This document shows, in pieces, positions 1-48,149 of a stretch of DNA of 64,000 nt (its first letter is position 1; each line of letters opens with the position of its first letter). The translations under genes were made by a program, and so were the position numbers. A model generated the notes under the pieces. That model made no database searches. It was not told where the DNA came from and saw only the letters and a list, made by a program, of their open reading frames with translations. The DNA is from Brachypterus glaber (lineage: Eukaryota > Arthropoda > Insecta > Coleoptera > Kateretidae), in NCBI GenBank assembly GCA_958510825.1, contig OY294044.1, positions 38,613,816-38,677,815 on the forward strand, given 5' to 3'.

Positions 1-170
1 ATTTGTTTCTGTTACACTTGATTTTTGTAAAGAATTGATATTATTTTTATTATAATAAATGTTTTTACAAAAAGTAGTTTTGTTATCCTTTTTTATCTGA
101 CTGTCATTATTATTTTTAGCCTTTTTATTAAGTGAATGCCGACTAAAATCATCCACTTTCCTATTTAGTT
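1..170 (-). CDS. Start of retrotransposon pol frame (partial, runs off the window)
   Basis: Reading leftward on the minus strand past the gag stop, the frame one base back (-1) stays open for more than 50 codons to the window edge. That is notable in such AT-rich DNA. It is lysine- and asparagine-rich and shows no protease or reverse transcriptase motif yet, which is expected for the first stretch of pol. It is entered through the slippery heptamer at 168-174. The assignment to pol rests on position after gag and on the frameshift site, not on any catalytic motif; the rest of the element lies outside the window. Confidence 0.55.
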
Positions 171-1586: not shown

Positions 1587-1589
1587 TTT

Positions 1590-2163
1590 GAATAATTATT
1601 TTCAAAATTTAAATTCAATTTACTCAAAATATTTTTTATAATAAAATATTTATACTGTACCACAAATTATTTTTTTTTGTGTACACTGTTCAACAAAGTT
1701 TTTGCATACTTTGGAAAATTTCCCAAATATGTCAAAAAAATACTAAATTATTATTTATCTCAATTGGACAAATTAATAATTATAAATAGTCTCCAAAACT
1801 ACAAAATTAGCTAATATTTATTCATATCCTTCGCATAAATAAATACCCTATTATCCATTTATTTCTATTGAATAAAAGATAATTTCTAGAAAAACTGAAC
1901 CCTCGCCAAAATTTCTCTATTCCATGTTATTCCATAAAATTCAGAAAAAACATAAAAAACACATATCTGATATATCTTATCAGATTAACTCTAATTTGAC
2001 TTAATTTTCAACAAAAAATATTTTATTCAACAGTTATATGTAGTTTTTCTCAAAATGAACTTTAAGTTACACTGAAAAAAAAATAAGCTTTAGATTTTTA
2101 CAAAAAATACACTGAGAAAAATGGAGTAAAATTAAAAAAACAAGTGTTCTATCTATCCAAATA
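1590..2163 (-). other. Untranslated leader of the LTR retrotransposon
   Basis: About 570 bases of very AT-rich sequence lie between the likely primer binding site and the gag start, with no ORF of note. This is the expected place for the 5' leader and packaging signal of the minus-strand element. No motif was recognised inside it. Confidence 0.4.
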
Positions 2164-25376: not shown

Positions 25377-25428
25377 GTCCTTTGTACTACGCATAATAGG
25401 GTCAGAAAGTTAAGGGATGATGTGAAGC

Positions 25429-28400
25429 ATGTTGCAGGTTCAACCAAATGTGGAGTGGTCCGAAGGAGGTTACAAGAGCAAGTGGACAACACGGAGTACG
25501 GAATTTACTGAAAGAGATGTTGAATGGGCAGGATCACTAAAAATCGGTCAAGTTAACCTGCAAAAGTCCGAAACAGCTACCTCCGAAATGCTTATAACGG
25601 CTGTTGACAGTGGAGTTGACATACTCATAATTCAGGAACCCTACAGAAGAAGAGGTAACAGCGGTAACTATCATATACCTCACTGCAGCAGATTTCGAGT
25701 CTACGCAAGTGTGGATAACGATTTTAGAGCAGCAGTTATCTTGCTTAACCCGGCACTGGACGATATGTTGGTCATACAACATACTTCCAATATGCAGTGT
25801 GTTGTAAGGGTTAAGTGTAGGGAGTCGAATTTTACAGTGATATCTGCATACTGGCCTCCGATAAACTGCCAGAGGGATATTACACCGGATTTGGATAACC
25901 TAGAGCAAGCCCTTAACCAGATCACTGATAGTATTATTGTTTTGGGAGTTGACACCAATGCCAGAAACACCGTATGGCAATCTGATCGTAATGATTTGAG
26001 AGGTATTGCTATCACAGACTTCGTCAGTGCTAGAAATCTTCATGTCGTCAATCAGCCTGGGTTTCCCACCACTTTCTCTAACCATCAAGGATACAGTAAT
26101 ATAGATGTCACTATAACCACTGACTTAGGTATGCACAAAATCACGGATTGGGCCGTGCATCCCCACAAAACTAGTATTGATCACAGGCTCATAACTTTTA
26201 AACTTACTTGTAGCCTAAACCCTACTCTTAACTATAAATGGGTACGAAGTAAGAACAATATCAATAAAAACACTGCACTTGACATGAGCATTAGGGCTAT
26301 TGATCTGCTTGAAGCTATCCCGTGGTCTCCTGGCACTGTAGGTATTGAGAATCGTGCTACTTCACTCACTTCAGCTCTTCAAGAAATATCCGAGGTTTGC
26401 ATTCCCAAAAGAAAACTTTTCGCACATAGACCAAATTGGTGGAACGATCAGTATGAAAATGCAAAGAGACGACTACATTCGGACAGAAAAGCTTTTCAGA
26501 GAGCCAGGGGAGATAACAGAGCAAGGTTGCTATTAGTATATTTGGAAGCTAAGGAATCCTACGCAAACACCACTGAAAAAGTAAGAAATAAATCCTGGTG
26601 CAATTTTGTACAAACGGAGCTTAGGTCATCTCCTTGGAGTCTACCGTACAAGCTCGCTGCTAAAAAGTGTGGGCCTACGCCTATTGAGTCCACCATCAGC
26701 ATTAATGGTAACTACACAACTGACTTTGAGCAAACTGCAAATATTCTTCTGGACAAATTCGTACTGACGGACAATCCTCAGGAGGACACAGAGGAACAGG
26801 CTGCATTCAGGGAAAGAGCTTTAACAGTTACCAGCATGTTCGTGATGCAAGTGAGGAAGAAGTTGGGTTTTTGTTAAAAGGTATTAACAATAACAAGGCT
26901 ACTGGTCCAGACGATCTTTCAGCTCCACTGCTCAAACTGGTTTTGCCAGCTATAATAAACTACCTCACAAGACTTTACAATGACTGTCTTGGCCAAAGCT
27001 ATTTTCCAAAAATCTGGAAAAAAGGTAAAATTGTTCTTGTAAACAAATCTGGACGCAATAGCAAGAACATTGAGGATTGTCGACCAATAACTCTGCTTTC
27101 CATGTTGGGAAAAGTTTTGGAAAAACTAATTAAGACAAGACTTGAGGAGTCGCAGGACAACTTATATGGTCAAAGGCAGTATGGCTTCGTACATGGTAGG
27201 AGTACCATCGATGCTATTGAAGATACCCTAGTAGCAATTGACAACCTTCAGCATTACAAATATCAAGCCTTAGTCTTACTTGATATCCAGGGAGCCTTTG
27301 ACAGTGTATGGTGGCCAACTATCATAAATGCCTTAGCTGATGATGACATACCCAACTGCCTTCTTCAACTTTTCAAAAGCTACCTACAAGATAGAATCTC
27401 GCAGCTTATTTATGCAGGAACTTTGGCGAGCAAGGAGAACACGATAGGCTGTCCACAGGGTTCAGTTTCAGGACCATCCCTCTGGAATAAAGCACTCAAG
27501 AAACTTCTGGAACTTGAACTACTATACGGTGAGGTCTACGCATATGCTGACGATGTTGGTTACGTTGTTGCGGGAAATACCCGTACTGAGCTGGAGGAAC
27601 ATGCCACGGCCGATTTAAAAATTATTACTGACTGGGCTAGTAGTAACAAACTTTCCTTTTCGAAAGAAAAGTGTAAATTTATTCTTTTTGGTCCTAACCT
27701 TGTCAGAAGCCCAGCCATTAGATTGTATGGTAGAATTATTAAAAGGATACCGGAAGCCAAACATCTAGGTGTCATCATCGATTCTAAGAGAAGTTTTGTA
27801 TCTCACATTAGGTATACCACAGAGAAGGCCAAGGAAGTTTTTGTCAGACTCAGATCGCTGACAAAAAAGCTTTACAATCCCCCAGAACAGGCAATGAGGA
27901 CAATCTATGAACGAGCTATCATACCCCTCACCACTTATGGATTGGAAATCTGGGGCTCACGGTCAGGAACAGCTAGATTTAAAATAGCCCTGGATAGCGT
28001 AAGTGGAACTTGCGCACAGGCTATTGCGGGTACTTCCTACTAAGCTTCCTGTGTGTTGGCTCAGATACCACCACTCTCCATCCAAATAGATGAACTTATC
28101 TTCAGAAAGGCACTAAGAAGGTGCGTGTTTATTAGGTATGGAGATGCAAGGCCTGGTCTACTTAGATACGACATTACACGGCTAGCTAGGGAAGAGACTC
28201 TAAGAAGATGGCAGGAATCCTGGGACGATGCGGAGACTGGTAGGACCACTTATAGGTTTCTTTCAAGCCTACAAGATAGAATGGCACTAAACCTAAAGCT
28301 TGATAAGGAATTAACCCAAGTCCTTACGGGCCATGGTAACTTTCGAGTCCACCTATTTCGGATTGGAAAGGAGGTGTCGTGGGACTGTAGCACTTGCGGA

Positions 28401-28595
28401 GCAGATATTGAAGACAATCCAATACATCGCATTGAAGTTTGTCCAGCCTTCGAGAACGCAAGGGCCGCCATAGTTAATTCTATTGGCCATGCAATTGTCT
28501 TACAGGATCTCATCATGGAGCTGCTAAACAATAATAGTTTAGACCTTTTAAAGGATTTCATCGCGGAGGAGTTTAGGATCGTGGAGCGAAATTAG
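25429..28595 (+). pseudogene. R1-clade ORF2 (endonuclease and reverse transcriptase), copy 1
   Basis: Replicative protein of the element. The APE-type endonuclease comes first (IIQEPYRR, VISAYWPP, LGVDTNARNTVW, SNIDVTI, SIDHRLI). The reverse transcriptase follows, with NNKATGPDDLSAPLLK, LLDIQGAFDSVWW, CPQGSVSGPSLW and the catalytic YAYADDVGYVV (about 27538-27570). The C-terminal knuckle CSTCGADIEDNPIHRIEVC is at about 28390-28445. Disruptions: a frameshift between about 26835 and 26877, and a TAA at 28041-28043 where copy 2 has CAA in the same context (SY-Q-ASCVLA). The GS(V)SGPxxWN style and paired Gag knuckles place it in the R1 clade. It ends 28593-28595, followed by its 3' UTR. Confidence 0.88.
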
Positions 28596-28682
28596 CCAGT
28601 CGTTTAGTGTTATAGTGTGTGCTAAGTGTGTTTGTGTTGGTTATCAATCAGTGTCAGTGCCAGTATATATATAGACGTAATT

Positions 28683-28760
28683 GGAGGGTTACGGTACCTC
28701 CAGCGGCTTAGCCGCAAAATTTAAGGGATAGGGCCTTCTAGAAGGTATTGTACCTATCTC
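28683..28760 (+). ncRNA. Structured 3' UTR element of R1-like copy 1
   Basis: Three potential stems occur in order: GGAGG...CCTCC, GCGGCTTAGCCGC, and GATAGG[GCCTTCTAGAAGG...]CCTATC. Copy 2 keeps the same three-stem layout at 30776-30858 with different bases in the outer stem. That pattern suggests a conserved RNA structure, perhaps the reverse transcriptase recognition site. It is part of the element RNA, not an independent gene. Confidence 0.5.
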
Positions 28761-28799
28761 TATTTATGTAGGGTAAAATAAATAAAATAAATAAAATAG

Positions 28800-28950
28800 G
28801 GAAGGCATGCAAAAAAGGACAGGGTATTGAGGACTGGATAGATAGAATATCTACTATCCGGGGGTGGTGGCCACCATGGAGACATGGTGGGGTACCTTCA
28901 GTGCTGGGCTCCCCTTTCCTTTTTTTTTTGTCCGTCTTTCCGTCTGTCCG
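28800..28950 (+). repeat. Tail segment with hairpin and (TCCG)n, after copy 1
   Basis: It contains the hairpin CCACCATGGAGACATGGTGG, the word GGGGTACCTTCAGTGCTGG, a T run and a short TCCG tract that directly abuts the 5' truncated end of the second copy. The matching segment after copy 2 is 30946-31128. It may be part of the element's 3' terminus or a shared target sequence. Confidence 0.6.
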
Positions 28951-30716
28951 GGGGCAGGGCAAGAGGTGTGACCACGGCAGAACGTCCAGTTCGTGAAGTT
29001 TCTGAAGCAGAAGTTGGTGCACTTATTAAAGCTGTAAAGAACAATAAAGCTACGGGACCCTCTAACCTTTCAGCACCTTTTCTAAAAATAGTGTTACCTG
29101 CAATTCTTAAATACCTTACCAGGCTATACAATGACTGTCTGAGCCAAACTTACTTCCCACGAATCTGGAAAGTTGGCAAAGTAGTTATGATCCCTAAGGG
29201 AAGTACAGGAAAAGATTTCAGGCCCATCACACTGCTGCCTATTCTGGTTAAAGTTCTTGAAAGGTTGATAATAACTAGACTTGACGAATCCCAAATTAAT
29301 CCAGATGGTGAGAGACAGCATGGATTTGTAACGGGCAGGAGTACCATCACTGCAATCGAAGCAACTCTAGGAGCGGTAGTCGCACAACCCGGCCAGTATA
29401 AAGTCTTAGTGCTATTGGATATCCATGGAGCATTCGATTGCGTGTGGTGGCCTACCATTATAAATTCTCTGGCTGACGATAATATACCAAATAAAATACT
29501 CCAGATGCAGAAAAGTTACCTTCAATTTAGACTCTCCAAAATTGATTACTCGGGTGTAAATGCGTGCAAAGAAAACGAGAAAGGTTGTCCTCAAGGGTCC
29601 GTTGCTGGTCCTACGCTGTGGAAAAGAGCTCTTAAAAAACTACTGCAGATGGAACTTGAATTTGGAGAGATGCATGCTTATGCTGATGATATTGGTTATG
29701 TAGTAAGTGGTTCCACATGCGTAGAGCTAGAAAACAGAGCCAATACAGATCTGAGGAAAATTACTGACTGGGCTACATCTAACAAACTAACCTTTTCTCA
29801 TGAAAAGTCTAAATATATACTTTTTGGAGGTTTGGTCAGAAACCCGGCTATAAGACTGTATGGAAGAAGAATACGAAGAGTATATGAGGCCAAACACCTG
29901 GGTATCATCATCGACTGTAGGAGGAATTACGCTGCACACATCAAATACGCGACAGATAAGGCTAAGACACATTTTGCCAAGATAAGAGCCTTAACGAGAA
30001 AACTTTATAAGCCACCTTCGAATGCAATAAGGACTTTTTTATGAAGGAGCCATAATTCCCTTAACTATGTATGGACTGGAGATATGGGGCTTCCGCACTG
30101 GCATCGCACGTACAACCACAGCTCTAGACAGCGTCAGCGGGACCTGCGCGCAGGTCGTTGCTGGTGCCTACTCACCAACCTCATATCAGGCCTCATGCGT
30201 TCTTGCAAAAATTCCCCCCCTATCCATACTGGTTGAAGAGATTAAATTCAAAAAGGCATCTAAAAGAAGGGACAACATAGCTTATGGAAATGCTCGAACG
30301 GGCCTCTCAAGAAATGCCAACAACCAGCTAGCCAGAGAGGAGACTTTAAGAAGATGGCAGGAATCGTGGGACGAATCAACCAAAGGCAGGAATACGTACC
30401 TTCTTATTCCGGACATTACTCTTAGGTTGAGTTTGAACTTGAAACTTGACGGATAGGAAAGTCTCACGATGGCAACTGTCCAGTTTGTGGTCAACAATTC
30501 GAAGATAACCCGATTCATAGAATTGAATATTGTCAATGCTTTAATGGTCCTAGGAATTTAATAACCACTACATTAGGGCACTACATCGTCGTTGGAAATC
30601 TCGTGGAAGAACTCTGTGACATTGACCAGCTTGATCTTCTTAAGGCTTTATTTTGCCAGAAAACAGAACAAATTTTGAAAATTAAAGCTAGTGTTAGTTT
30701 CAGTGCGTGCACGTGA
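28951..30716 (+). pseudogene. R1-clade ORF2, copy 2, 5' truncated
   Basis: A second member of the same lineage. It starts abruptly after a TCCG tract just before the reverse transcriptase (AERPVREVSEAEVGALIKAV) and therefore lacks ORF1 and endonuclease. RT motifs are present: NNKATGPSNLSAPFLK, LLDIHGAFDCVWW, CPQGSVAGPTLW and HAYADDIGYVV. The frame shifts near 30040 (after AIRTF) and again near 30455, where the coding trace continues into CPVCGQQFEDNPIHRIEYC, the terminal knuckle. It ends at a TGA at 30714-30716. Clear amino-acid divergence from copy 1 shows the two are separate insertions rather than a recent duplication. Confidence 0.85.
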
Positions 30717-31449: not shown

Positions 31450-31649
31450 NNNNNNNNNNNNNNNNNNNNNNNNNNNNNNNNNNNNNNNNNNNNNNNNNNN
31501 NNNNNNNNNNNNNNNNNNNNNNNNNNNNNNNNNNNNNNNNNNNNNNNNNNNNNNNNNNNNNNNNNNNNNNNNNNNNNNNNNNNNNNNNNNNNNNNNNNNN
31601 NNNNNNNNNNNNNNNNNNNNNNNNNNNNNNNNNNNNNNNNNNNNNNNNN
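31450..31649. other. Assembly gap (200 N)
   Basis: Exactly 200 N; true size unknown. Confidence 0.99.
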
Positions 31650-32010: not shown

Positions 32011-32060
32011 AAAATTTTATTTTTTTTTATGTTTGATTGATGTTACCCATAATGTTTCAG

Positions 32061-33080
32061 AAGGCATATATTTTATGCAAAGACTCAGTATGGCTATGAA
32101 TAGAGGAAACGGTATTTGCGTCATGGGAACTCATGAGGATGTGACAAAGGAAGAAATATTTTTCTCAGAAGATCCAATTATTAATTTAAAAAAAACAGAT
32201 CAGACAGCAAATAAATATAGATCAGGTAGTATCACAAAAGATGTTATCACCAATAACCATCTAAATTACAGTAATGTTGAGGATAACATGAGCGAGAAAA
32301 ATTATATCACGATCAATAAGTCAGTGGTCGGAAGTCCAGTCAGAACCCTGGGTCTTAAAGGATTAAAGAATATCGGAAACACCTGTTTCATGAACTCGGT
32401 CATTACATGCCTTTCGAACACGAAACCTTTGATGGAATACTTGAAGAAGGACAGCTATATGCAGGACATCAACATCAATATATCTAATATACACGGAGCT
32501 TTAATTAAGACATTTGCCGATGTGATAAAGGATTTATGGTCAGAAGATTCGTCTGAACGGGTAGTAAACACGGTTTCTCTCAAGAGCCAAATCCAGCGTT
32601 TCGCCCCCCGTTTTATAGGCTACACACAACAGGACGCTCAAGAATTTCTGCGGTACCTTTTGGAGAGGCTTCACGAGGACGTTAACAGGATCACGGAAAA
32701 ACCTAAACCTATATTGACCAAAATAAATAAAAAATTAAATGATAACGAAAAATCTGCAGAATCATGGTCCAGATACCTCCGGATGGACGACTCTCACATT
32801 TTGGACCTCTTCGTCGGACAACTGAAATCCACCCTCAAATGCACCCATTGCAGCCATTGTTCCGTCACATTTGAACCATTCTGGGACCTTTCTCTCTCTC
32901 TTCCACAACACACCGGTCAATTAAGTTTATCAGAATGTTTGGAATCCTTCACACGGCAAGAATCGTTAGACGGTGATGAAAGACCTACATGTTCAAAATG
33001 CAAAAAGCGCCGAAAATGCACAAAATTACAATTCAAAAATTTCCGAAAATCTTAGTAATTCACCTTAAACGCTTCTCGCC
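32061..33080 (+). pseudogene. Usp2-like ubiquitin C-terminal hydrolase, first part (Cys box and zinc finger)
   Basis: Family role: a cytoplasmic/nuclear cysteine protease that removes ubiquitin. After ~100 non-conserved residues comes LGLKGLKNIGNTCFMNSV with the catalytic Cys (Cys118 when counted from 32033), then FIGYTQQDAQEFLRYLLE, then the zinc-binding pairs CTHC and CSKC around FEPFWDLSLSL. A possible 3' splice site (AATGTTTCAG, ending 32060) precedes it; the first ATG after it is 32075. A frame change near 33035 leads to a stop at 33053-33055, while another frame continues through KILVIHLKRFSP up to 33080. There the 14.7-kb Polinton-like element is inserted, and the gene resumes at 47785. 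No intron is seen within the domain. The shift, the later stop and the insertion make it a pseudogene. Usp2/Usp21-type is judged from the box sequences. Confidence 0.85.
33075..33080 (+). other. Left 6-bp target site duplication (CTCGCC)
   Basis: CTCGCC immediately before the element; the identical hexamer is at 47779-47784. One copy belongs to the protease coding sequence (FSP codons). Confidence 0.95.
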
Positions 33081-33439
33081 AGTAGTAGGACTACCGGGAT
33101 ATAAACCCACTGTGGTAACCTGAGGAATTCTTCAGCTGAAGACATCAGCGAGTCCTGAAAAAATCCTGAAAAAACAATTAAAAAAAAAAAATTTTTTTTC
33201 AGGATTTTATTTTGTTCTTCGGTTGACGACAATGACCAGAGGGTGTCGCCACCTAGCAGTGTAAGTGAGACCAAGGATCCGGACTGCCTAGCCAGACAAA
33301 TGGGTTAAAATAAACAACTTGTTATTCAAATAATATTACCAAAGAACCTTGTTATCTGAAAAGGTCAAGATCGTATGCATACATTACAAATTATAATTAA
33401 TAATTAGGGAGCTGTAGAAAATAATTTTTTAAAAAAGTC

Positions 33440-33512
33440 TCGGCTGTTGCGGGTTTGAACCCCAGACCTATAGTTTGGTAGACGGATACGTTACGTACTG
33501 CGCCACAGAGCT
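33440..33512 (-). other. tRNA-like sequence in the left terminal repeat
   Basis: Minus-strand box A (TGGCGCAGTACG, 33494-33505) and box B (GGTTCAAACCC, 33451-33461) have the tRNA spacing. The B-box stem has one mismatch compared with the right-arm copy. Acceptor and anticodon stems do not pair well, so this is not a convincing functional tRNA. It points outward toward the element end. Confidence 0.5.
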
Positions 33513-34579
33513 CTCTGCGATACAAAATAATTTAGTTGAAAGCTTGGTATTATAAAATTATTTAAAATAAACCAAGGAGCCCTGAAAAGTTTAAAATTAT
33601 TGAAAGCAATGAGTGTCAAACCTAATCAGACTGTTAAGCCTAGCTTGTTAGCCTAAATTATGAGACCAAATTAGTAATAAATATTAAACATTGACTTTTG
33701 TAAACCAAACAAATACATATACAAATATTCTTTAGAAGTACAAAGAGCCAATACCACGTTTTCGCTCAATAATTACCAATAGACCAAAATATCAAAGAAA
33801 GATTCCGTATTGTTTCCGTAATATCTATAAATTATAAATATATAGTTAATATATGGCGTCTTCACCAAATTCTGTTGAAATAGTAATTAAATAAAAATAA
33901 TTTTAATTTGTTTCATAATTTAATAATTATTACATATTAAAAATTATTCTCAAACACATGTTGCAAAAAAGTTCTCAAAAAAGTTTAGTATACACAGAAA
34001 AAATGTTTTCTTAAATCAAGAATATTGTGATTCGTATATAACAATATTGTTGTATATTTGTATATACCACGGTACAATCAAATTACATATTTGTTTTAAA
34101 AACTATTGCAAAAAAGTATAATCACAAATATAAAAATGTTTGACGCTATTGCTTAAATATATTTCTTAGAATAGTTGTTTTAAGTGTGGTTTGTCAAGCG
34201 CGCCTAAATTATACAAAAAGTGTAATTACACACAGAGAAATGTTTCTTAAATCAAAAATATATCACATTTTTTGTGTTATACCTAATTACAGATTTTATC
34301 TTGTTTCAAAAGTTGGCAAATAGTATACACACAGAAAAATGTTTCTTAAATCAAAAATATTGTTATATCACATTTGTTTTTTCTGTGTTAAACCTAATTA
34401 CATATTTTGTCTTGTTTCAAAAGTTAGCAAACAGTATACACACAGAAAAATGTTTCTTAACCCTTACCCTCCCGAGACTAAACTAATGATAATTTTTCGA
34501 TTTACCTATACCTAAAAAGAAGAAAAAAAGAATAAAAAATACATTTTTTTGACTTTCAGGAGAGCTGTATTATACCGAA

Positions 34580-35690
34580 TTAAATTTGTATATTTGTTTG
34601 CATACATAAAAGTCTATAAAAGTATTCTGTGTTATACCTAATTGCACATTTTATCTTGTTTCAAAAGTTAGCACAAAGTATACACACAGAAAAATATTTA
34701 TTAAATCAAAAAAATTGTTATATACACCAGTATTCTCAAACAGACTTTTTCTGTGTGCAGCAGTATTTTATTATTAATGTACTGAGAAAAAAATATTTTA
34801 ATAATAATATAATTGTATTTCTTTGTGTATTTATCTTAATTTATTAATACACCGTACAATTAAATTGCATATTTGTTTAGACTTTTTATATTATAACTAA
34901 TTGTATATTTTATCTTGTTTCAAAAGTTAGCAAAAAGTATACACATGGAAAAATATTTATTAAATCAAAAAAATTGTTATATACACCAGTATTCTCAAAC
35001 AGACTTTTTCTGTGTGCAGCAGTATTTTATTATTAATGTACTGAGAAAAAAATATTTTAATAATAATATAATTTTATTTCTTTGTGTTTATATTTATCTT
35101 AATTTCTTAATACACCGTACAATTAAATTGCATATTTGTTTAGACTTTTTGTGTTTGGAACAAGATAAAATATACAATTAGTTATATTGTATATTTTATC
35201 TTGTTTCAAAAGTTAGCAAAAAGTATACACACGGAAAAATATTTATTAAATCAAAAAAATTGTTATATACACCAGTATTCTTAAACAGACTCTTTCTGTG
35301 TGCAGCAGTATTTTATTATTAATGTTCTAAGAAAAAAAATTTTTAATAATTCAATAATTTTATTTCTTTGTGTTTATATTTATCTTAATTTATTAATACA
35401 CAGTACAATCAAATTGCATATTTGTTTAGACTTTTTGTGTTATAACTAATTGTATATTTTATCTTGTTTCAAAAGTTAGCAAAAACTATACACACGGAAA
35501 AATATTTATTAAATCAAAAAAATTGTTATATACACCAGTATTCTTAAACAGACTTTCTGTGTGCAGCAGTATTTTATTATTAATCTACTTAGAAAAAAAA
35601 TATTTTAATAATTCAATAATTTTATTTCTTTGTGTTTATATTTATCTTAATTTATTAATACACCGTACAATCAAATTGCATATTTGTTTT
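34580..35690 (+). repeat. Four tandem ~265-bp subterminal units, left arm
   Basis: Each unit has TATCTTGTTTCAAAAGTTAG, AAATATTTATTAAATCAAAA, a TTTCTGTGTGCAGCAGTATT block and ends near ACCGTACAATTAAATTGCAT (positions 34849, 35114, 35399 and 35661). Shorter versions of the CTTGTTTCAAAAGTTGGCAA core occur outward at 34300-34450 and inward at 36310-36560. The last unit-like piece at 37637-37700 has been separated by a later insertion. Confidence 0.88.
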
Positions 35691-36616
35691 AAATTTAAAA
35701 TACTATTGTTGCTATATTATAGCAAAAAAGCGAAAATATTTTACAAACACAGAAAAATAAAATCTTAAATCAAGAATATGCATTAACGGAGATTTTAATT
35801 TTAGTAATTATATACTTATAATTTAATACATTTTAACACAAAAAATATCTTTAAAAACATTATTTAAGCTTACCTAAATTACTTGGGAAAATACCATATA
35901 ATGAAATGCGTAGCATTACTTTGACTTTTAAGCCCAATTATGAAAAAAAATTTTATTAATTATATTTATTTTTATTCTCTTTATTTTAATTTTATCTCAT
36001 TAATTGTATTTTTTTATAAGTTAATAATTTTATTTCTCTGGGTGTTATTTAAATTTATCTTATTATTTTAAAATAAATTAATTTTAGCTATCTCAATGGT
36101 TTGTACCTAAATTATGAAACAATTTTTATTATCAAAATTTAATCGTTTTAATATGCATATATGTATTATAAATTATAATTTATAATTGTCTAGTCAGCAC
36201 ATCGTGTATATAATTAAATTTAATCTTATTATGTATAAATAACTATCAATAATCGGTAAGTTTATCAATATCTTAGCAAAGCAATTATAAATTATTAGTT
36301 TTTAATAATTGCAGATTATGTTTCAAAAAGTTGGCAAAAAGTATACACAAAGAAAAATGTTTCTTAATTATTTTATACAAATCACATTTTGTTTTTTTTT
36401 TTGTATTATACCTAATTGAAGATTTTATTTTGTTTCAAAAGTTAGCAAAAAGTATAATTACACACAGAAAAATATTTCTTAAATCAAGAATATTGTTATT
36501 TCTCATTTGTTTTTCTGTATTATACATAATTGCAAATTTTATTTTGTTTAATTACTGTGAGCAAAAAGTATAATTACACACAGAAAAATATTTCCTAAAT
36601 TAAGAATATTGTTATA

Positions 36617-37631
36617 CAGTATAAGCTCAATAATATGAACATGCGTATATATGAACTATTAGGGTTTGAGAGCACAGAATTTTTTCTATTGACTTCTCTG
36701 TAACGTGAACATCATAAACTCTCTTTAACGTGAACAACCAGTTTTAACAAGTTTATACATATTTTTATGTAGTTGTTTCTCTTACTTAATAATCAGTAAA
36801 TTTTCTAAGAAACCGTTTTTTAGAGGTGACTTTGGTTTGTTGTAAAATAGTGTGAATAATGTGACCTTTTCTGTCAAAAATAAGACATAATTTAAAATCT
36901 AGAGAAATTGCAAATCCGCAAACATGTTTTTAACCGTTTCCTGATATACGAAAGTGCTGTGTTTGCCATACCTCGCATATTATTAAACTTTTTTTGTTCT
37001 CCAGTTGAATTAATCATATTCTTTCTTCATTCTGTAATTACGAAATAGATAAATGGAACCCATTTTCTTCTGACTTAGAGTAACATTTAATAAACCTTCT
37101 TTGAAAATGTGCGCACATGTAATTTGTGACATCTAGTACCAAACCAACTAACAATTTTTACCAGATTTTATTGTCTCCACTCTGACACATTAAGGCTTTC
37201 TAGGTTAAACTATGCAAAAGGGTAGAAATCGAAAGTTATTTAGGAACTTGACTTTTACTAATCTAGCTAAAAAGTATGAGTATGGTAAAATTAACAATTT
37301 GTTATATAAAAAATAAAAGCGTTAAAATACTTAATATTAATACTTTAAAACCAAGTAAAAAACAAACATTAAGAGCATCAGTGTTTCGAAAAATGGAAAG
37401 AAAATTTTACCAATGTTTTCTTGTATAGCTAGAAAGGAATTTTAATAATTAAAATTTTATATTTTATCATACAATTTTTTAACTAGAATAAAGTTTGGCA
37501 AAATAAAAAAGATTTAATTAACTTAAATTTCTTGTCATACAAAGCTTGAAGTATATTATATTTTCACCTGCATGAAGTCACGTTAATTTGAACAGCCCCC
37601 GGTTTTTTTTTTGTGTTCACAGCTTGTACTG
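36617..37631. mobile_element. ~1.0-kb pogo/Tigger-like non-autonomous element nested in the Polinton
   Basis: CAGTATAAGCT at the left, AGCTTGTACTG at the right, flanked by TA on both sides (36615-36616 and 37632-37633). The host subrepeat continues across the insertion (..TTGTTATA / TATTCTCAGCC..). No transposase could be read, so it is a deletion derivative. TA target plus CAGT ends fit the Tc1/mariner-pogo group. Confidence 0.65.
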
Positions 37632-37704
37632 TATAATATTCTCAGCCAACTTTTTTCTGTGTGCAGCAGTATTTTGTTATTAATTTATTGAGAAAAAAAA
37701 TCAA

Positions 37705-40700
37705 TTTTGATTCTGATAATAATATTATATTTAATAATTTTATTTGTGTTTAAAAGTTATTTTATCAATAATATGTAATAAGTTATTATTATAACATAAA
37801 ATAATTTTAGCTATAATAAGGTCAGGTTTAAATACTTTATCTTTACATGACCATAATTATAATAAGTATACACTGAAAAAATATAAAAACAATATATAAT
37901 AAAATAAAAAAATATTTATTGTTGTAAAAATACCTTCAATATAAGACATGTATTTTTCTTATTTTCTTTAATGTTGTATGCTGTATTGACAACCAAGCCT
38001 TAATTTGAACCAAAACTAATGGTCTTTTGTCTAAAAAGAACTAAAAAGGCAGTGATTTTTGCTTTTTTTTTTAATTTAGTCTGTACGCATTAATCAATAA
38101 ATTTGTATTACAAGGGTTATTCAAACAACAAGTCCAAACCTGTATTATTTTTTTTCATTTATTTCTGCCCCCAAAACTTATTTGTGTGTCTAGTAATTAA
38201 GCTTTTAGTTATTGTTTTTTGAACATTTTTTTATTTTTTTTATTAGAAAACTTTAAGAACTTGTTACGTAAAGATTAAAGAAATTTTCACAAGCTTAGTC
38301 TAAAATAAAATAACGTTATATCTTTTTAGAATAATAATCAAACTGTAATAGCAAAAATAATGCAAGTTAAAATATTTAATTTCTTTCAAATACTTAAACA
38401 CAAGTTAAAATTATTTAAATAAAATATTCCTGAAAAAAATTGTTGTAAAATTTATATTACACATTCAAATAGAGAACAAAGCATTTTTTTTTGTTTTGTA
38501 AAAAAAGTATCAAAGTGTCACGTTTTTACAACAAAAATAATTTAACAGAAAATAAAAGAAAATTAGGTTTTGATCAAGGGGTTTGTAAAAGTCAAAACAT
38601 ACATTTTCGGTAATAATATTTTAAATAACACATGGTTGAAATTAAAATAATCCTTAGAACAGTTTTTGAGGAAGTCGATTTTCAATTGTTTTTATATTTT
38701 TTTCAGTGTGTTATTTTTTTTTTGGGATATTGATTAAATGATTTAATACTATGCATTAATGCACAATAAATCTTTTCTTATCGAAATTGTTTATATAAAT
38801 TATGCAAATTTAAAATTTTAAAATATAATAATAAGCTTCATTTACAGATTTATATTATGCACCTTAAATACAATCACAAACATATATAAATATATCTCAT
38901 ACTATGAGATAGGCTTATATAAGTCTTGTAGTCGTAATATAATTTACAGTTTTAAAAGTTTCAATTTACATTTACAACGTAATACACCACTCAACAGGTA
39001 AGTTGGCATTATTATACCATAAAAGTATTAAGTTGAAAAGAAACGTTTTCTACTAGCTTTTGTTATCGAGTTGCAATTATTTTTATCTAAATTATATACA
39101 ATACATAATAAGATTTTTTAATTATTTAGCTACCCTCGTATATTAGTAAAAAATATGCAAGTATCAAGTAAATAAACTAGCTCCTAAATTGAAATACTGT
39201 AATTATATTTTTTGGCCTTTTTAATAGTCGTATCTTAAAAATGTCCTAATTTTTATTTTTCTTTCTTATCCAAGTTAAACAATATTTAAATTTGGCAATT
39301 CATAAAATATATTTAATGTTATCATTTTAAAAAATGTATATGGAGGTGAAATAAATTCTCGTTATATTTTAAAATTATACATTTTAATAGAAAAATAATT
39401 TAAAATTAAGCATTTTTTTTAATAACAAATATTTTACTATTATATATTTTTTTAATAATAATGAAAATGACTTTGTTTCTCAAAAGCTAGTAAAAAATAT
39501 TTCTGTACACTTCTTGTTTTGTTTTGTCACGAAACGAGTAATTTATTTTAGGTGAATCACCTTGTATAGTTTATTTTTAATTAATCAGATTGGGAAAGTA
39601 GTTTATGTAATAATATTATAATTATTAACACGGTATTTTTATATAAAGAGTGCGTTTTTTATTACTATGTTGTGTTTTTAGAGAAAATAACATTAAAATT
39701 AATTAACTTCAGGGCATTTGATATCACGATTTGATTTTTATTTGAAAACATTTTTTTAAATGATATCACCGGCTTAAAAGCACTAAGTCAATTTAGTTGA
39801 TCAAACTACTTATTTGTTTAATTAACAAATGGAGCATTATTAATTCCAATTTGCATTAGTTCATTTTTCCAAAAATAATTATTACAAAATTTAAATTTAA
39901 ATTTGTATCTCAGTCATGTTTTATGACTCTTTGCTTGTAAGCATACGATATATGGTTTATAGCTTGTCCTTGAATTACTAAAGGAGTTCATTAGTTGAGA
40001 TAGATAAAAAAATTATAAAAACATGTCAAAAAAATTTATGTATTCTAATTTAATAAAAATCTATTAAAATCTCTATCTCTATCTAAGGCTGGTTTTCATC
40101 GCAGACCAGTGTTTTTAATGGACTGTTTTCAATTTAATAATAAAATTATTTTTAAATACTGCAATAACATGTTTCCTTTTATTTTTACGATTTTTTTTTA
40201 TTAGTTTACCCCTTTTAACTATAATTTTTTTAATGGGATTTTAATAGGCTTTCCTAAGATTTTTTCTTATTTACAATTTTATTTTATTTTTTAAGTTATT
40301 TTAAAAAGATTTGCACAAAAATGAATTGATTTATACAACTATTTTTAAAATCAAATAATTTATTTTCCCCCTTTTAAACATATCATTTTTCGTTTCTTTT
40401 TTTCTAAAATTCTACTTTAAGTTTGAGATGAGAAACATGGGCTTAAAATTTTAAGCCTTAATATTAAACAAAAAACAGTGCTTTGTGTTACACTAACCAA
40501 TTAATTTTAACCATTTTTTTTAACTTTTTGTGTGTTTTTACGCACTTAGATCTTAATCTTATTTTTTTTATATATTGTATAATTTTCCAAAATCTCCAAA
40601 AGGCTTTTTAAATCCTTTGATACAAGGGTCTTTAATGAAAAAATAAGTCTGTCCGTTTGATGTTAGCTGCAGTATTTTGATTAATAGACCTCGCAGGCTA

Positions 40701-40975
40701 GATTGATAATCATCATCATCATCCCTTTGACATTAATATTGTTTCTTACATTATAGTTTACAAAGCACTTAGATCTCAACTTTTTATATCAAATTTAAAA
40801 CTTTATATAAAAAAATGAAAAAAAAATGTTTTTGCTTTTGAAAATTTCAAAAATATGTTTCCTTAACATTATGTCAAACTATAAATATAAGGTGCAGCAA
40901 AAGCGTAACTGTTAATAATAATTAATCAATGTTAAAATGTTTTCAATCAGTTCAGATCAGTTAAAAACAATCAGA
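37705..40975. other. Non-coding interior of the Polinton-like element
   Basis: Very AT-rich with frequent stops in all frames; no capsid, polymerase or integrase trace. One possible transcription unit start is seen: GGCTTATATAAGTC near 38921, followed about 75 bases later by CACTCAACAG|GTAAGTTGG, a good 5' splice site (38989-39003). No downstream exon was recognised. Confidence 0.45.
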
Positions 40976-40983
40976 TCAGTTAA

Positions 40984-41335
40984 AAACCCGTTATATACCC
41001 GTTTATACCTGTTTCGACCTGTTTATACCCGTTGATATACCCGGTTATACCCGTTCATATACCCGTTTATACCTGTTTCGACCTGTTTATACCCGTTTAT
41101 ATACCCGGTTATACCCGTTCATATACCCGTTTATACCTGTTTCGACCTGTTTATATCCGTTTATATACCCGGTTATACCCGTTCATATACCCGTTTATAC
41201 CTGTTTCGACCTGTTTATATCCGTTTATATACCCGTTTATACCCGTTTATATACCCGTTTATACCTGTGTCGACTAGTTTATACCCGTTTATATACCCGT
41301 TTAAAACCCGTTTATATCCGTTTATATCTGTTAAA
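40984..41335. repeat. VNTR of ~62-bp units built from 'cccgtttata' blocks
   Basis: The anchor CCTGTTTCGACCTG recurs at 41007, 41069, 41131 and 41199 (periods 62, 62 and 68). Between anchors are 12-16-base variants of TATACCCGTTTATA and TATACCCGGTTATA. The array is much richer in CG than its surroundings and begins after a short AGATCAGTTAAAAAC repeat. It lies about 350 bases beyond the 3' end of the penton-like gene. Confidence 0.88.
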
Positions 41336-41689
41336 AAACATGTCTAGGCCCGTGATGGATGAATCAGAAAAAGAACTAAAAAAGTAAATTGCAAAGCGTG
41401 GAATTATCAAAGATAAGCTTGATTTAATTAAACTATTCCCCTACAACAAATTTATGTTTTAAAATTAAAGAGTAAAATTTGAGGAATAAATTTATAGATA
41501 AAAAAATTACAAAATAAATTAAAAACGTATTTATTGTTATAGATTACTTCATAAATAATTTGTTGTGACAAAAAAAAAATCTTCGTTTTCCCTTATTGAT
41601 CTTATTTTCTATCTTTATCCCTCAAAGAAGGTTGTAAAGTCATTTTCGTACTAGGGTCTTCAGTTCGTTATTATTAGAAACAAGCCCCA

Positions 41690-42430
41690 TTATTTTTGCT
41701 TTTTCAGTTCCAATAATATTACAATTTCTTCTCCACGGAAATTTATCAAATTGGAGTTTTGATCGAGTATAGTTAGTGTTATCTTTTTTATTTGTTTTTG
41801 ATTTGTAACAGGTAGATAAATAAGATTTCTAGGCTCTATATTTATACTATAACCTGGGTCTACTCCTGGTGCAAACTGGTACAAAGTGTGTGAGGTTTTG
41901 CTATTATAGTATGAACCTGAAACAATATCACATTCTATACGAATTGTTACCACTTTAACAATATTTACAGGTAAATCTGATTCATGTAGTTTATTAGGTT
42001 CTAAAACTCTTGCTGAAAAACCAAGTAATTTTCCTATACTATCAGTGTGATTAAAGTTTATTTCATAAATACTCTCAATTTGGGACTTTAGGGTATTGTT
42101 ATTAGGGGTTAAACTGATTTTATTTTGCAAATCGGTTGAAGAAAGTTGTTTTTGCAGATATTTTTCAATGTGAGCTACTTCGTAAGCCCCCGTTGGTATA
42201 GAAATAATATGCTCCTTCTTTTTCTTTGTTTTATTTTCATCAGTATTGTTTTCAACTTCTGTGTAGTAAAATTTATTGTTTTTCCCCTCCTCAATATTAG
42301 GGATAGAGTTGTACGTATAAAACCCAATCAGTGCCAAGGAATACTGATAATCAGCGTCAAGTTCTATTGGAGGGTAATATTCTTGTGACAAAAGACTTGT
42401 ATATCCTGACAGGGTGAATGTCAGAGACAT
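41690..42430 (-). CDS. Polinton minor capsid (penton-like) protein
   Basis: An intact 246-codon ORF from the ATG at 42428-42430. The expected role is the pentameric vertex protein of a Polinton or related virus-like particle. Features seen: YYPPIELDADYQYSLALIGF near the N-terminus, then NSIPNIEEG. A charged Lys/Glu insert with KKKK follows, then LLGFSARVLEPN in the middle. The C-terminal third is beta-rich (IRIECDIVSGSYYN, NLIYLPV, NFRGEEIVILLEL) and consistent with a jelly-roll. The order and phrasing match penton-type proteins I know from insect and cnidarian Polintons. A TATA-like box lies 41 bases upstream. No stop or shift is seen although most other Polinton genes are absent. Identity is by motif recall; a structure comparison would settle it. 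Confidence 0.75.
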   Translation of the reverse strand: MSLTFTLSGYTSLLSQEYYPPIELDADYQYSLALIGFYTYNSIPNIEEGKNNKFYYTEVENNTDENKTKKKKEHIISIPTGAYEVAHIEKYLQKQLSSTDLQNKISLTPNNNTLKSQIESIYEINFNHTDSIGKLLGFSARVLEPNKLHESDLPVNIVKVVTIRIECDIVSGSYYNSKTSHTLYQFAPGVDPGYSINIEPRNLIYLPVTNQKQIKKITLTILDQNSNLINFRGEEIVILLELKKQK

Positions 42431-42461
42431 GACTATAATTGGAGAGATCTAAAACTATCAA

Positions 42462-42471
42462 GCTTTTTATA
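42462..42471 (-). promoter_or_regulatory. TATA-like box of the penton-like gene
   Basis: The minus strand reads TATAAAAAGC, 41 bases before the ATG. Transcription starting about 30 bases downstream would leave a leader of about ten bases, an arrangement more like a compact viral gene than a host gene. Confidence 0.45.
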
Positions 42472-42930
42472 AGCTATTACATAAGATTCAGATAAGATTA
42501 AGATAAAATTCAGATAATATTAAGATAAGGTTAAGATAGGATTAAGAATAATTTGTGGTTATAACCTAAATCCTTAAAACGACACTGATTTTTAGTTAAA
42601 TAAAAAATGACAAAAAATTACATTTAGTGTTTTAACAGTACAACATTAGTGAATTTTTTTTAAATGCTGTTTATTATCATCTTCTTATTACTATTACTTT
42701 CACCGAGGAAAGACTTTCTTTAGTAAAAAAATTTGACTGGCTGTCTTGAAAATTTGTGACCAAGATAACGCTTTAAGCTACATATATTTTATACCATAGG
42801 TCTAGTTTTAGGCTGCCAATTTTTTTTTTAAAAACTATAAAAAATTATAAATAAAATTCAAAAAATCTAAAAAATTTCAACTTTTTTTTTGTGTAGCATT
42901 CACAATAAAATTGATATTTTTTTCCAGTAT

Positions 42931-43362
42931 ATGCAAAGGAGAAGATTTCAGCTAGTTATTCTGTTCAGTCACTCACTGTTGCTGTTATTAAAAATATTTA
43001 AAATGAATAAGGTTGAAATTATTAAAAACTTTACAAAGGAAGTTAAAAAGTTTAATCTTCAATATAGAACAATAGAATTTAAAATAAAAACAGTACCAGC
43101 TGACAAAGAACCAGTATTATGGATGAAAGAAGCAGTTAATGAAATTATTAGAAAAGGAACTGAGGAGGTTAGTCCTACTGATCAAATTGGATTCAACTTT
43201 TACTCAAAGGACTTTAAACGTAGTGAGGGTTGGCTTCGTTTTCAAGAAGCATCAAAGGTTACTTTTAATGATATTTGGGGTATGATCTCAAAAATCTCAG
43301 AAATAAGCACTGATACATTTTGTTTGGTTGTTACCTCTGTTAAGATACCTATTAAAAAGTGA
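42931..43362 (+). CDS. Small Polinton-associated-like ORF
   Basis: Intact to the stop at 43362. ATG codons at 42931 and 43003 are both possible; I favour 43003 (MNKVEIIKNFTKEVKKF) because the residues before it are hydrophobic and unlike the rest, giving 119 residues. A pyrimidine-rich TTTTTTTCCAG just before 42928 could be a 3' splice site, so an upstream exon is possible. The middle has IGFNFYSKDFKRSEGWLRFQ and ends FCLVVTSVKIPIKK. This pattern resembles the region found before or at the N-terminus of polymerase ORFs in insect Polintons, but here no polymerase follows. Function unknown. It is transcribed opposite to, and about 500 bases away from, the penton-like gene, so the two could share an intergenic promoter region. 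Confidence 0.5.
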   Translation: MQRRRFQLVILFSHSLLLLLKIFKMNKVEIIKNFTKEVKKFNLQYRTIEFKIKTVPADKEPVLWMKEAVNEIIRKGTEEVSPTDQIGFNFYSKDFKRSEGWLRFQEASKVTFNDIWGMISKISEISTDTFCLVVTSVKIPIKK

Positions 43363-43364
43363 AA

Positions 43365-44605
43365 AGAGAAAGGATACGCTCCTACCTTAAAATAAATTTT
43401 TACTATATTTTTAAACTTTTTTTTTTGCTATAAGATCTTTATCTGAAAACTTTTTTGTCAGTCAAAACAGCCCCTTAATTTAGAAAGATATGTTAAATAT
43501 TAATAGTAAAAAATATGTTACAATAATACATTTTTTAGACTATTGATATAACTGATTTGAACGTTTATTTTTTAAGATTAAACTACTGTATACTGAATAT
43601 ACTCTAAAATGTATGTAAAAATAGAGTTTGAAAGCAGCAAACAATTTACGTATATTACATGATTGCATATTACATGATTCTATATAAAGCACTTAGTAAT
43701 TCAATAAAAAAATTACTTTAATTGTTTCGTATGTTTATATGTTATTTTATATACTTAATAATATTTTTATATATTACGTTATTTATATATATATTTTGTT
43801 AAAAAGTAAAATTTTAAAATATAAAAAATTGTACATCTATTTATCCTTTATACCAAAAATTATGAGAGCTGTTGAGAATATACCATTGAATTCGAAGCAT
43901 TACATTCTGAATTACTTAAAATAATAAAATGTTTTTAAGTAAATACTAGTTTAATAAATATACATATAAAAATTTAAAACAATTTTTTTTTGTATCTACT
44001 TTTGACAAATACATTCACAATTTTCGATCTTCCCTGTAAACGACACCTTATCTGTTATGGCTGTAAAGTAATACTTTCCACCTTTTGTGATTTTTTTTAT
44101 AAAAACATTTTTTTTTTCTAAAATAAGGAAAAAGATATAAAATAATAAAGTTTAAATGATTGATATTTTCAATAGGCTTAGTTTCCTTGATTTTTCTTGA
44201 AAATTTTGAGTTGATCGGATTGTTCTTCCTTGACTTATCATGCGAACAAGAATACATAACATACAGACTGACGGACTTATGTAAAAGTTGTTTAGAAAAA
44301 CACTTTAGTATAAATGTCTTTAATTTTAGACATTTGGGTTCAAAGAAAACGTATAATAAATAAAAATACCTTTCTGTGTGTACTTTTAGAATGCAATTTG
44401 ACTTTTTGACTGATAATAAAATACTTTTCACTTATTGTTATGAAATTTTTATAATTTAGCCTAGGCTGAGCTGTTAAATTATTATTTTTGTGTTATATTT
44501 TTAAATAAAAAATATAAAAAGTATATTTTTTCATATAACTTTTTTTTCAGTGTAACAAAGGCTAATGAATAAATGCATACATAGTTGTATAAAGTAGTTA
44601 TTTTT
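43365..44605. other. AT-rich interval between Polinton genes
   Basis: No recognised gene. TCTATATAAAGCAC near 43680 is a good TATA match, with only a 61-codon low-complexity ORF after it. Opposed ORFs at 44048-44431 (minus) and 44160-44363 (plus) overlap and have no known domain, so I do not call them. Confidence 0.4.
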
Positions 44606-44608
44606 AAA

Positions 44609-45088
44609 ATGGGTGTTGATAAGTTTGGTCGTTCTTCTTTGACATCAGAAAAACCTATAAATATAAGACCTCAGCCTCAAGTATTATCTTTAGACTCTGA
44701 GGGTAATGTGAATGTAAAAAATAGAAAATTGGTTAATGTTTTACAACCTAAAAATGCTCTCGATTGTTCTAATAAATCGTATGTCGATAATTGTTATAAA
44801 AATGCAATGGATAATATAAAAATTTTAAAAGATTCACTGGGAGAAAGAGAAAAGGTGTTTAAAAAAGAATTACAAGATTCCATACAGGTACTACTAAATA
44901 GTACTAGCAAAGATATAAATAAAGAGTTAGTTGCCTTACAAAATAAAATTAAGGAGCTACATGATAAAATAAATGGTACAAGTAAAGATATAAATAATAG
45001 ATTAGAAAAAATTGAACAAAGTAAGACAGAAAGTCATGTTAAAATACCGTTATCTGGAATTGTTGATTTTAATAATTTAAGAAAATAA
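44609..45088 (+). CDS. Polinton fibre/attachment-like coiled-coil protein
   Basis: Starts at the ATG at 44609 (MGVDKFGR). Order: a short N-terminal anchor motif GVDKFGRSS, then SLDSEGNVNVKNRKLVNV, the LQPKNALDCSNKSYVDN segment, and a long heptad-rich helix (about residues 65-145: ELQDSIQVLLNS, ELVALQNKIKELHDKI). An N-terminal particle-binding motif, a 'parameters then KSYVD' block and a coiled coil are what I know from fibre-like proteins of Polintons and related adenovirus-like elements. The predicted role is host-particle attachment, by inference. A TATAAAG word lies about 20 bases upstream of the ATG. The stop at 45086-45088 may be premature, since a different frame stays open beyond it to about 45286, which reaches into the right terminal repeat. 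Confidence 0.6.
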   Translation: MGVDKFGRSSLTSEKPINIRPQPQVLSLDSEGNVNVKNRKLVNVLQPKNALDCSNKSYVDNCYKNAMDNIKILKDSLGEREKVFKKELQDSIQVLLNSTSKDINKELVALQNKIKELHDKINGTSKDINNRLEKIEQSKTESHVKIPLSGIVDFNNLRK

Positions 45089-45096
45089 ACCCCTCA

Positions 45097-45286
45097 TAAG
45101 AAGAAAAAAAATTGTTAAGGAGCTGCAAAAACCGATTAGAAATAAATCAAATCTTGTGTGTGTAGATTTTAAATTAAAGTTTGAAACGAATAAAAATATT
45201 CCACAAAAAGCAATACTTTTTCATTATATTCATAGTAAATGGTATATTACATTTTCCCCAGTAATTTTTTGTATTAAAATGTATTA
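45097..45286 (+). pseudogene. Open stretch after the fibre-like gene, other frame, ending in the terminal repeat
   Basis: About 60 codons without a stop follow the fibre-like stop in another frame, ending with TAA at about 45286. The composition looks protein-like (HYIHSKWYITFSP). It may be the frameshifted C-terminal part of the preceding gene. A diverged version of its last part can be traced on the minus strand at about 35860-35930 inside the left terminal repeat. Confidence 0.35.
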
Positions 45287-45424
45287 AATTATAAGTATAT
45301 AATTACTAAAATAAAAATCTCCGTTAATGCATATTCTTGATTTAAGATTTTATTTTTCTGTGTTTGTAAAATATTTTCGCTTTTTTGCTATAATATAGCA
45401 ACAATAGTATTTTAAATTTGAAAC

Positions 45425-46200
45425 AAATATGCAATTTGATTGTACGGTGTATTAATAAATTAAGATAAATATAAACACAAAGAAATAAAATTATTGAATT
45501 ATTAAAATATTTTTTTTCTAAGTAGATTAATAATAAAATACTGCTGCACACAGAAAAAGTCTGTTTAAGAATACTGGTGTATATAACAATTTTTTTGATT
45601 TAATAAATATTTTTCCGTGTGTATAGTTTTTGCTAACTTTTGAAACAAGATAAAATATACAATTAGTTATAACACAAAAAGTATAAACAAATATGCAATT
45701 TGATTGTACGTGTATTAATAAATTAAGATAAATATAAACACAAAGAAATAAAATTATTGAATTATTAAAAATTTTTTTTCTTAGAACATTAATAATAAAA
45801 TACTGCTGCACACAGAAAGAGTCTGTTTAAGAATACTGGTGTATATAACAATTTTTTTGATTTAATAAATATTTTTCCGTGTGTATACTTTTTGCTAACT
45901 TTTGAAACAAGATAAAATATACAATTAGTTATAATATAAAAATTCTAAACAAATATGCAATTTAATTGTACGGTGTATTAATAAATTAAGATAAATACAC
46001 AAAGAAATAAAATTATATTATTATTAAAATATTTTTTTCTCAGTACATTAATAATAAAATACTGATGCACTCAGAAAAAGTCTGTTTGAGAATACTGGTG
46101 TATATAACAATTTTTTTGATTCAATAAATATTTTTCTGTATGTATACTTTGTGCTAACTTTTGAAACAAGATAAAATGTGCAATTAGGTATAACACAGAA
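45425..46200 (-). repeat. Three tandem ~265-bp subterminal units, right arm
   Basis: Same units as in the left arm, with GCAATTTGATTGTACGGTG-type ends at 45429, 45694 and 45956. Confidence 0.85.
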
Positions 46201-47344
46201 TACTTTTATAGACTTTTATGTATGCAAACAAATATACAAATTTAATTCGGTATAATACAGCTCTCCTGAAGCTCAAAGGAAACAGAAACTAAAAAAAAAA
46301 AATGTATTTTTTATTCTTTTTTTCTTCTTTTTAGGTATAGCAAAAAACACAATTAAATCGAAAAATTATCATTAGTTTAGTCTGGGGAGGGTAAGGGTTA
46401 AGAAACATTTTTCTGTGTGTATACTGTTTGCTAACTTTTGAAACAAGACAAAATATGTAATTAGGTTTAACACAGAAAAACAAATGTGATATAACAATAT
46501 TTTTGATTTAAGAAACATTTTTCTGTGTGTATACTGTTTGCCAACTTTTGAAACAAGATAAAATCTGTAATTAGGTATAACACAAAAAATGTGATATATT
46601 TTTGATTTAAGAAACATTTCTCTGTGTGTAATTACACTTTTTGTATAATTTAGGCGCGCTTGACAAACCACACTTAAAACAACTATTCTAAAAAATATAT
46701 TTAAGCAATAGCGTCAAACATTTTTATGTTTGTGATTATACTTTTTTGCAATAGTTTTTAAAACAAATATGTAATTTGATTGTACCGTGGTATATACAAA
46801 TATACAACAATATTGTTATATACGAATCACAATATTCTTGATTTAAGAAAACATTTTTTCTGTGTATACTAAACTTTTTTGAGAACTTTTTTGCAACATG
46901 TGTTTGAGAATAATTTTTAATATGTAATAATTATTAAATTATGAAACAAATTAAAATTATTTTTATTTAATTACTATTTCAACAGAATTTGGTGAAGACG
47001 CCATATATTAACTATATATTTATAATTTATAGATATTACGGAAACAATACGGAATCTTTCTTTGATATTTTGGTCTATTGGTAATTATTGAGCGAAAACG
47101 TGGTATTGGCTCTTTGTACTTCTAAAGAATATTTGTATCTGTATTTGTTTGGTTTACAAAAGTCAATGTTTAATATTTATTACTAATTTGGTCTCATAAT
47201 TTAGGCTAACAAGCTAGGCTTAACAGTCTGATTAGGTTTGACACTCATTGCTTTCAATAATTTTAAACTTTTCAGGGCTCTGTGGTTTATTTTAAATAAT
47301 TTTATAATACCAAGCTTTCAACTAAATTATTTTGTATCGCAGAG

Positions 47345-47417
47345 AGCTCTGTGGCGCAGTACGTAACGTATCCGTCTACCAAACTATAGGTCTGCGGTTC
47401 AAACCCGCAACAGCCGA
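47345..47417 (+). other. tRNA-like sequence in the right terminal repeat
   Basis: Box A TGGCGCAGTACG (47352-47363) and box B GGTTCAAACCC (47396-47406) start 44 bases apart, as in real tRNAs. The T arm is a perfect 5-bp stem (TGCGG/CCGCA) around TTCAAAC. Acceptor pairing is only about four base pairs and the anticodon arm pairs poorly. A tRNA-derived, possibly still Pol III-promoting relic is likelier than a working tRNA. Confidence 0.5.
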
Positions 47418-47778
47418 GACTTTTTTAAAAAATTATTTTCTACAGCTCCCTAATTATTAATTATAATTTGTAATATATGCATACGATCTTGACCTTTTCA
47501 GATAACAAGGTTCTTTGGTAATATTATTTGAATAACAAGTTGTTTATTTTAACCGATTTGTCTGGCTAGGCAGTCCGGATCCTTGGTCTCACTTACACCG
47601 CTAGGTGGCCACACCCTCTGGTCATTGTCGTCAACCGAAGAACAAAAAAAAATCCTAAAAAAAAAAAAAAAAATTTTTTAATTTTTTTTTCAGGATTTTT
47701 TCAGGACTCGCTGATGTCTTCAGCTGAAGAATTCCTCAGGTTACCAAAGTGGGTTTATATCCCGGTAGTCCTACCACT

Positions 47779-47784
47779 CTCGCC
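47779..47784 (+). other. Right 6-bp target site duplication (CTCGCC)
   Basis: Identical to 33075-33080 and directly follows the element terminus. Confidence 0.95.
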
Positions 47785-48075
47785 GATGTCACAATTTCAG
47801 AGAAAGCTCAGCGTCACCGTAGACTTCCCTCTAGAAGAATTAGATATGAGCAATTATGCTGCAGAGTCCGTTGCACCCTCCAGATACAACTTATACGCCA
47901 TTTCAAATCACAGTGGTACCACATATAGCGGACACTAAACCGCCTATTGTAAACATCCCTATAGCTATTTGTGGCACGAATACAACGACTCTATAGTATC
48001 ATCAATTTCACCAAGATCGATCATTACAGGGGAAGCCTACATATTATTCTACGAACAAGAAGGTCAAAAATTTTA
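47785..48075 (+). pseudogene. Usp2-like ubiquitin hydrolase, last part (His box)
   Basis: Continues exactly where the first part stops at 33080, in frame across the target duplication. It carries the end of the finger-palm segment (KLSVTVDFPLEELDM), the His box (RYNLYAISNHSGTTYSGH then TAYC) with the catalytic His, and WHEYNDS with the Asn/Asp partner, ending GEAYILFYEQEGQKF and TAA at 48075. A TAA at 47936-47938 replaces the Tyr codon normally found after SGH, a substitution rather than an indel. No intron interrupts it. An ATG at 47714 inside the transposon arm is in frame, creating a chimeric 74-codon ORF that ends at that stop. Confidence 0.85.
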
Positions 48076-48149
48076 AAATAGTGATATTATTTTATAACTT
48101 AATAATAATTGTATTAATATTTAATTAAATTAAGTACCTACTATTAGAA

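Follow-up and report, generated by a model that had tools for sequence, protein, structure and literature searches.

A probable non-autonomous Polinton/Maverick derivative in a ubiquitin-protease pseudogene of the beetle Brachypterus glaber

The genome assembly of the kateretid beetle Brachypterus glaber (GCA_958510825.1) carries, within a 64,000-nt stretch of contig OY294044.1 (forward strand, positions 38,613,816 to 38,677,815; the window in what follows), a 14.7-kb element that was inserted as a single unit, with a 6-bp target-site duplication, into a pseudogene copy of a ubiquitin carboxyl-terminal hydrolase. It is probably a non-autonomous derivative of an insect Polinton/Maverick, mobilised in trans by a full-length relative. 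The Polinton affinity is read from long inverted repeats, the 6-bp duplication, AG...CT ends, and a penton whose fold, as predicted, matches those of mavirus and adenovirus; the non-autonomy from the fact that none of the polymerase, integrase, major capsid, ATPase, and protease genes is seen intact. A first-pass annotation had proposed both, and both are borne out, the second for the present copy. The element is filed as a non-autonomous derivative because it shows these structural marks but not an intact integrase or the remaining virus genes.

The limits given in that annotation are exact to the base: the element opens with AGTAGTAGG at its left end and closes with CCTACCACT at its right, and the perfect duplication it had claimed is found as a copy of CTCGCC on either side (Table 1). 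At the local base composition, a 6-base match would arise by chance with a probability of about 5e-4. The flank match extends to 7 bases (TCTCGCC), the final T of the element being the same as the base preceding the left duplication. A 6-bp duplication is nevertheless preferred, with the shared T as chance, because the two ends mirror each other (AGTAGTAGG and AGTGGTAGG, read inward); the 5'-AG start has its mirror at the opposite end. The AG...CT rule for Polinton ends is said to go back to Kapitonov and Jurka in 2006. Long inverted repeats, 6-bp duplications, a family B DNA polymerase (PolB), and an rve-type integrase are named as Polinton marks in extracts of PMC8969392 and PMC12220804, and the element has the first two of these.

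The inverted repeats, which had been described as multi-kb, are real: the arms measure 2,766 and 2,515 bp and agree at 98.8% of 2,472 aligned positions, gaps aside. Their 30 mismatches comprise 13 transitions and 17 transversions, and the biggest gap is one additional 286-bp tandem unit in the left arm. Polinton inverted repeats are put at “hundreds of nucleotides” in an extract of PMC8969392, and the arms of polinton-like viruses at hundreds to thousands of bp in one of PMC12220804; at 2.5–2.8 kb, the present arms are longer than the former figure, yet ordinary for the wider group by the latter. Each arm also holds a tRNA-like segment pointing outward. Scored in the right arm, it is covered end to end by the Rfam tRNA model, with 13.8 bits, where the model requires 29, and an E-value of 2.2; ARAGORN detected no tRNA in these segments, and their folding is not above that of shuffles (z −1.11 and 0.55). 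By eye, a T run can be made out, as can words resembling box A and box B. Together these point weakly to a decayed tRNA or short interspersed element (SINE) head, or to an RNA polymerase III (pol III) unit.

The target is a ubiquitin-specific protease (USP) copy without introns across the catalytic domain. Joined, its two flanking parts translate as ILVIHLKRFSP-MSQFQRKLSV, continuing to ...AYILFYEQEGQKF, so that the local reading is rejoined as had been stated; the frameshift and the in-frame stop listed in Table 1 persist, however, and excision therefore yields no working protease frame. The “Usp2-like gene copy” first named as host is accordingly a USP copy (PF00443), but a pseudogene rather than a working gene. 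It is probably a retrocopy; convincing retrocopy boundaries were looked for around it and not found.

Inside the element, three open reading frames (ORFs) look coding: the penton gene, a 119-amino-acid (aa) ORF, and a 159-aa ORF. The penton, a minor capsid protein with a single jelly roll, is the best defined. Its frame is 252 aa from stop to stop, the longest in 41345–45263, and all 100 shuffles gave shorter ones (highest 123). It has 851 homologs in the database, Popillia japonica being the named beetle source among them, and keeps 47 of 50 near-invariant positions in a 25-sequence alignment. For its structure model (pLDDT, the predicted local distance difference test, 89.9), the mavirus penton is the top PDB match by Foldseek and tied for top by VIA-align, and the fold also matches adenovirus pentons; a penton with a jelly-roll fold is described for Polintons in an extract of PMC4028283. 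Neither the single sequence nor the alignment found related loci in viral contigs, and the alignment had no match in genome contigs. Among the 120 relatives listed of the 851, none has a Pfam domain; this may be a large capsid family that Pfam does not model.

No other intact gene of the expected set could be recognised. The longest ORF of the AT-rich core (98 aa) is within chance (100 mononucleotide shuffles: median 75, 95% point 109, highest 118) and falls in strays of the arm repeats. Pfam scans covered 23 of 40 stop-free pieces of at least 42 aa, plus the ORF over the tandem array, and gave no polymerase, integrase, capsid, ATPase, or protease domain; the other 17 pieces are short. Penton aside, no ORF exceeds 167 aa stop to stop, and no intact retrovirus-type integrase gene was seen, though small remnants are possible; the same holds, by ORF and Pfam scans, for the major capsid, packaging ATPase, and adenovirus-type protease genes. 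The one candidate trace of a protein-primed PolB is the 119-aa ORF, whose two homologs, P0121 and P0122, come from the longhorn beetle Molorchus minor (45–49% identity over 73–76% of a 157-aa query). Its domain may be the N-terminus of an insect Polinton PolB, which no tool confirmed: Pfam gave no matches in the ORF, P0121, or P0122, and viral contigs no relatives of P0121 or its alignment. A search of the window by tblastn with P0121 and P0122 found no additional similarity. It had been said that only particle-type genes are recognisable; this is right for the penton and leaves out the 119-aa ORF with its two homologs.

If the element is a non-autonomous derivative, its major capsid, ATPase, protease, and integrase genes would have been gone before insertion, along with the bulk of its polymerase gene. 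A full-length relative, either resident in another part of the genome or infecting, would have supplied a protein-primed polymerase, copying the element from its inverted-repeat ends, and a retrovirus-type integrase, joining those ends to a staggered target. The penton may or may not serve in the relative's particles. If the arms, which differ by just 1.2%, date the insertion, point mutations accumulated in place would be too few to have erased the genes; deletion or replacement would have removed them, and rather before insertion than after it.

An autonomous Polinton could instead have inserted complete and lost genes afterwards through internal deletions and insertions, leaving a dead copy and no mobile non-autonomous family. 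We regard this as unlikely, although it deserves serious weight: the element is slightly below the usual Polinton size (15–40 kb in an extract of PMC8969392), and the 119-aa ORF stops where P0121 continues, as if after a deletion. However, neither the arms nor the duplications are broken, and with the arms so alike, several large inner changes would need to have left them untouched within a short time. Nor is the core merely shortened, since it includes 5.1 kb of AT-rich DNA that shows no sign of coding.

Several points weigh against trans-mobilisation of an already reduced element. Gene conversion between the arms could explain their likeness, which would weaken the age argument, and a one-off deletion may have followed insertion, this being the one copy known with its inner structure. 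The structural match of the penton to that of mavirus is loose (root-mean-square deviation 6.7 Å, 10–12% identity, template modelling score about 0.5), and its conservation is not needed by a freeloader unless the element is young. The PolB link of the 119-aa ORF is tentative, and the Pfam scans covered 23 of the 40 stop-free pieces.

The intact, conserved penton also invites a reading in which the element is a satellite in which selection maintains capsid-vertex genes (the penton, perhaps one for a fibre-like protein) and which travels in the particles of a helper Polinton; we think this improbable. The 159-aa ORF is coding-like in its G+C content by codon position (0.39/0.26/0.15) and, among 25 PHROG rows up to E 1, has weak matches to four families named tail fibre (E 0.018–0.047). 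It is, however, closer to three of unknown function, which are its top matches (E 8.6e-5 to 1.5e-3), and to a tape-measure family (E 0.01); a homolog search returned none, and a test for heptads gave no signal (its score is reached by 1,592 of 2,000 shuffles). The intactness of the penton may reflect nothing more than youth, and the helper is hypothetical. More doubtful still is a fuller version, in which an insect-Polinton satellite would combine replication ends, a capsid-vertex set, and a free-standing N-terminal polymerase domain, and would be packaged by its helper, perhaps interfering with it; the tRNA-like segment of each arm, as a pol III unit, could then give an outward small RNA comparable to adenovirus VA RNA. 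Misjoining of the arms, or of the whole element, to the protease copy during assembly is very improbable: the window is a scaffolded sequence and contains two N runs (10434–10633 and 31450–31649), but none is within the element and the nearer ends 1,431 bases to its left, the duplication is exact at both junctions, the protease reading continues unbroken from one flank into the other, and between the arms there are 30 substitutions and a difference of one tandem unit.

Apart from three short matches of 49–94 bases, the rest of the window holds no second copy of the element, and DNA patterns for the element ends and the tRNA-like segment had no match in viral contigs. A 15-base end pattern found 54 stretches in genome contigs, all prokaryotic; BLAST matches to the terminal 300 bp were 15–23 bases long among 20 rows of the output and were put down to chance.

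Table 1. Coordinates (in the window) of the element, its parts, and its target.
Feature	Position	Strand	Remarks
Whole element	33081..47778	.	14,698 bp; AGTAGTAGG...CCTACCACT; from sequence and inverted-repeat alignment
Target-site duplication CTCGCC, left copy	33075..33080	+	
Target-site duplication CTCGCC, right copy	47779..47784	+	
Left terminal inverted repeat	33081..35846	+	2,766 bp
Right terminal inverted repeat	45264..47778	-	2,515 bp
Four tandem subrepeats, left arm	34641..35704	+	about 260–286 bp; 64–95% identity to reference copy
Three tandem subrepeats, right arm	45505..46231	-	about 260 bp
Decayed tRNA-like segment, left arm	33441..33512	-	placed via arm alignment; mirrors right-arm segment
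Decayed tRNA-like segment, right arm	47345..47416	+	followed by run of six T; Rfam tRNA model
AT-rich core without coding signal	35847..40960	.	22% GC; 5.1 kb
Strays of arm repeats inside core	36306..36623, 37637..37752		
Tandem array	40986..41332	+	unit ACCCGTTTAT / 64 bp
Penton (minor capsid protein)	41693..42430	-	246 aa, intact
119-aa ORF	43003..43359	+	related to P0121 and P0122
159-aa ORF	44609..45085	+	coding-like base composition
Left part of target USP copy	32033..33080	+	intronless; PF00443, E 1.2e-33; frameshift near 33026
Right part of target USP copy	47785..48076	+	one in-frame stop, about 47936

Right after the tandem array, a short ATG-started stretch (41335–41430) resembles, by eye, the start of a retroelement gag. 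Other mobile elements are seen elsewhere in the window: apparently two successive copies of a non-LTR (long terminal repeat) retrotransposon at 24418–30453, with an endonuclease ORF (PF14529) and a pair of ORFs for reverse transcriptase (PF00078); a further reverse transcriptase (PF00078) in a long open frame at 12548–14524; a retrotransposon gag-like ORF with a zinc knuckle at 168–1595 (minus strand), both under Pfam's cut-off; and, by eye, a split mariner-like transposase at 22448–23548 (minus strand), with PF13358 at an E-value of only 0.18. The beetle homologs of the element's proteins and, by eye, these neighbouring mobile elements point to an insect as host. There is also a satellite-like tandem array at 19468–20560, with a unit of 99/198 bp.

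Polintons are transposons and viruses at once. With the Polinton/Maverick group (polintoviruses, insect adintoviruses) the element shares its inverted repeats, duplication, ends, and penton; it differs in that genes for PolB, integrase, major capsid, ATPase, and protease were not seen in intact form. Drosophila-associated adintoviruses 1–3 are close to it in length (13.3–14.6 kb), and in an extract of PMC8363768 the first has PolB, integrase, capsid, protease, and FtsK and the second a nearly identical set, whereas the present element shows just a penton and two small ORFs; when the penton model is compared by structure, proteins of adintoviruses 3 and 2 rank 37 and 43. The mavirus virophage is alike in penton fold, its penton being the best solved match noted above, and unlike in sequence at that low identity; no further mavirus gene, and no link to a giant virus, was recognised. 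Searches of the open-licence literature for mentions of a non-autonomous Maverick or Polinton, or of a defective or truncated Polinton, found none, which is weak evidence of absence.

Non-autonomous DNA transposons, such as deletion derivatives and those like miniature inverted-repeat transposable elements, keep intact ends but lack the enzymes needed for their movement. The element resembles them in this, and differs in being far larger and in carrying an intact virus capsid gene. As an example of a type already known, it is a good one. Since it has its two ends, a clean duplication, and a conserved penton but no recognisable enzymes, it is well suited to testing whether animals harbour trans-mobilised or satellite derivatives of Polintons: the empty site can be read, and the arms are distinctive enough for helper searches in related genomes.

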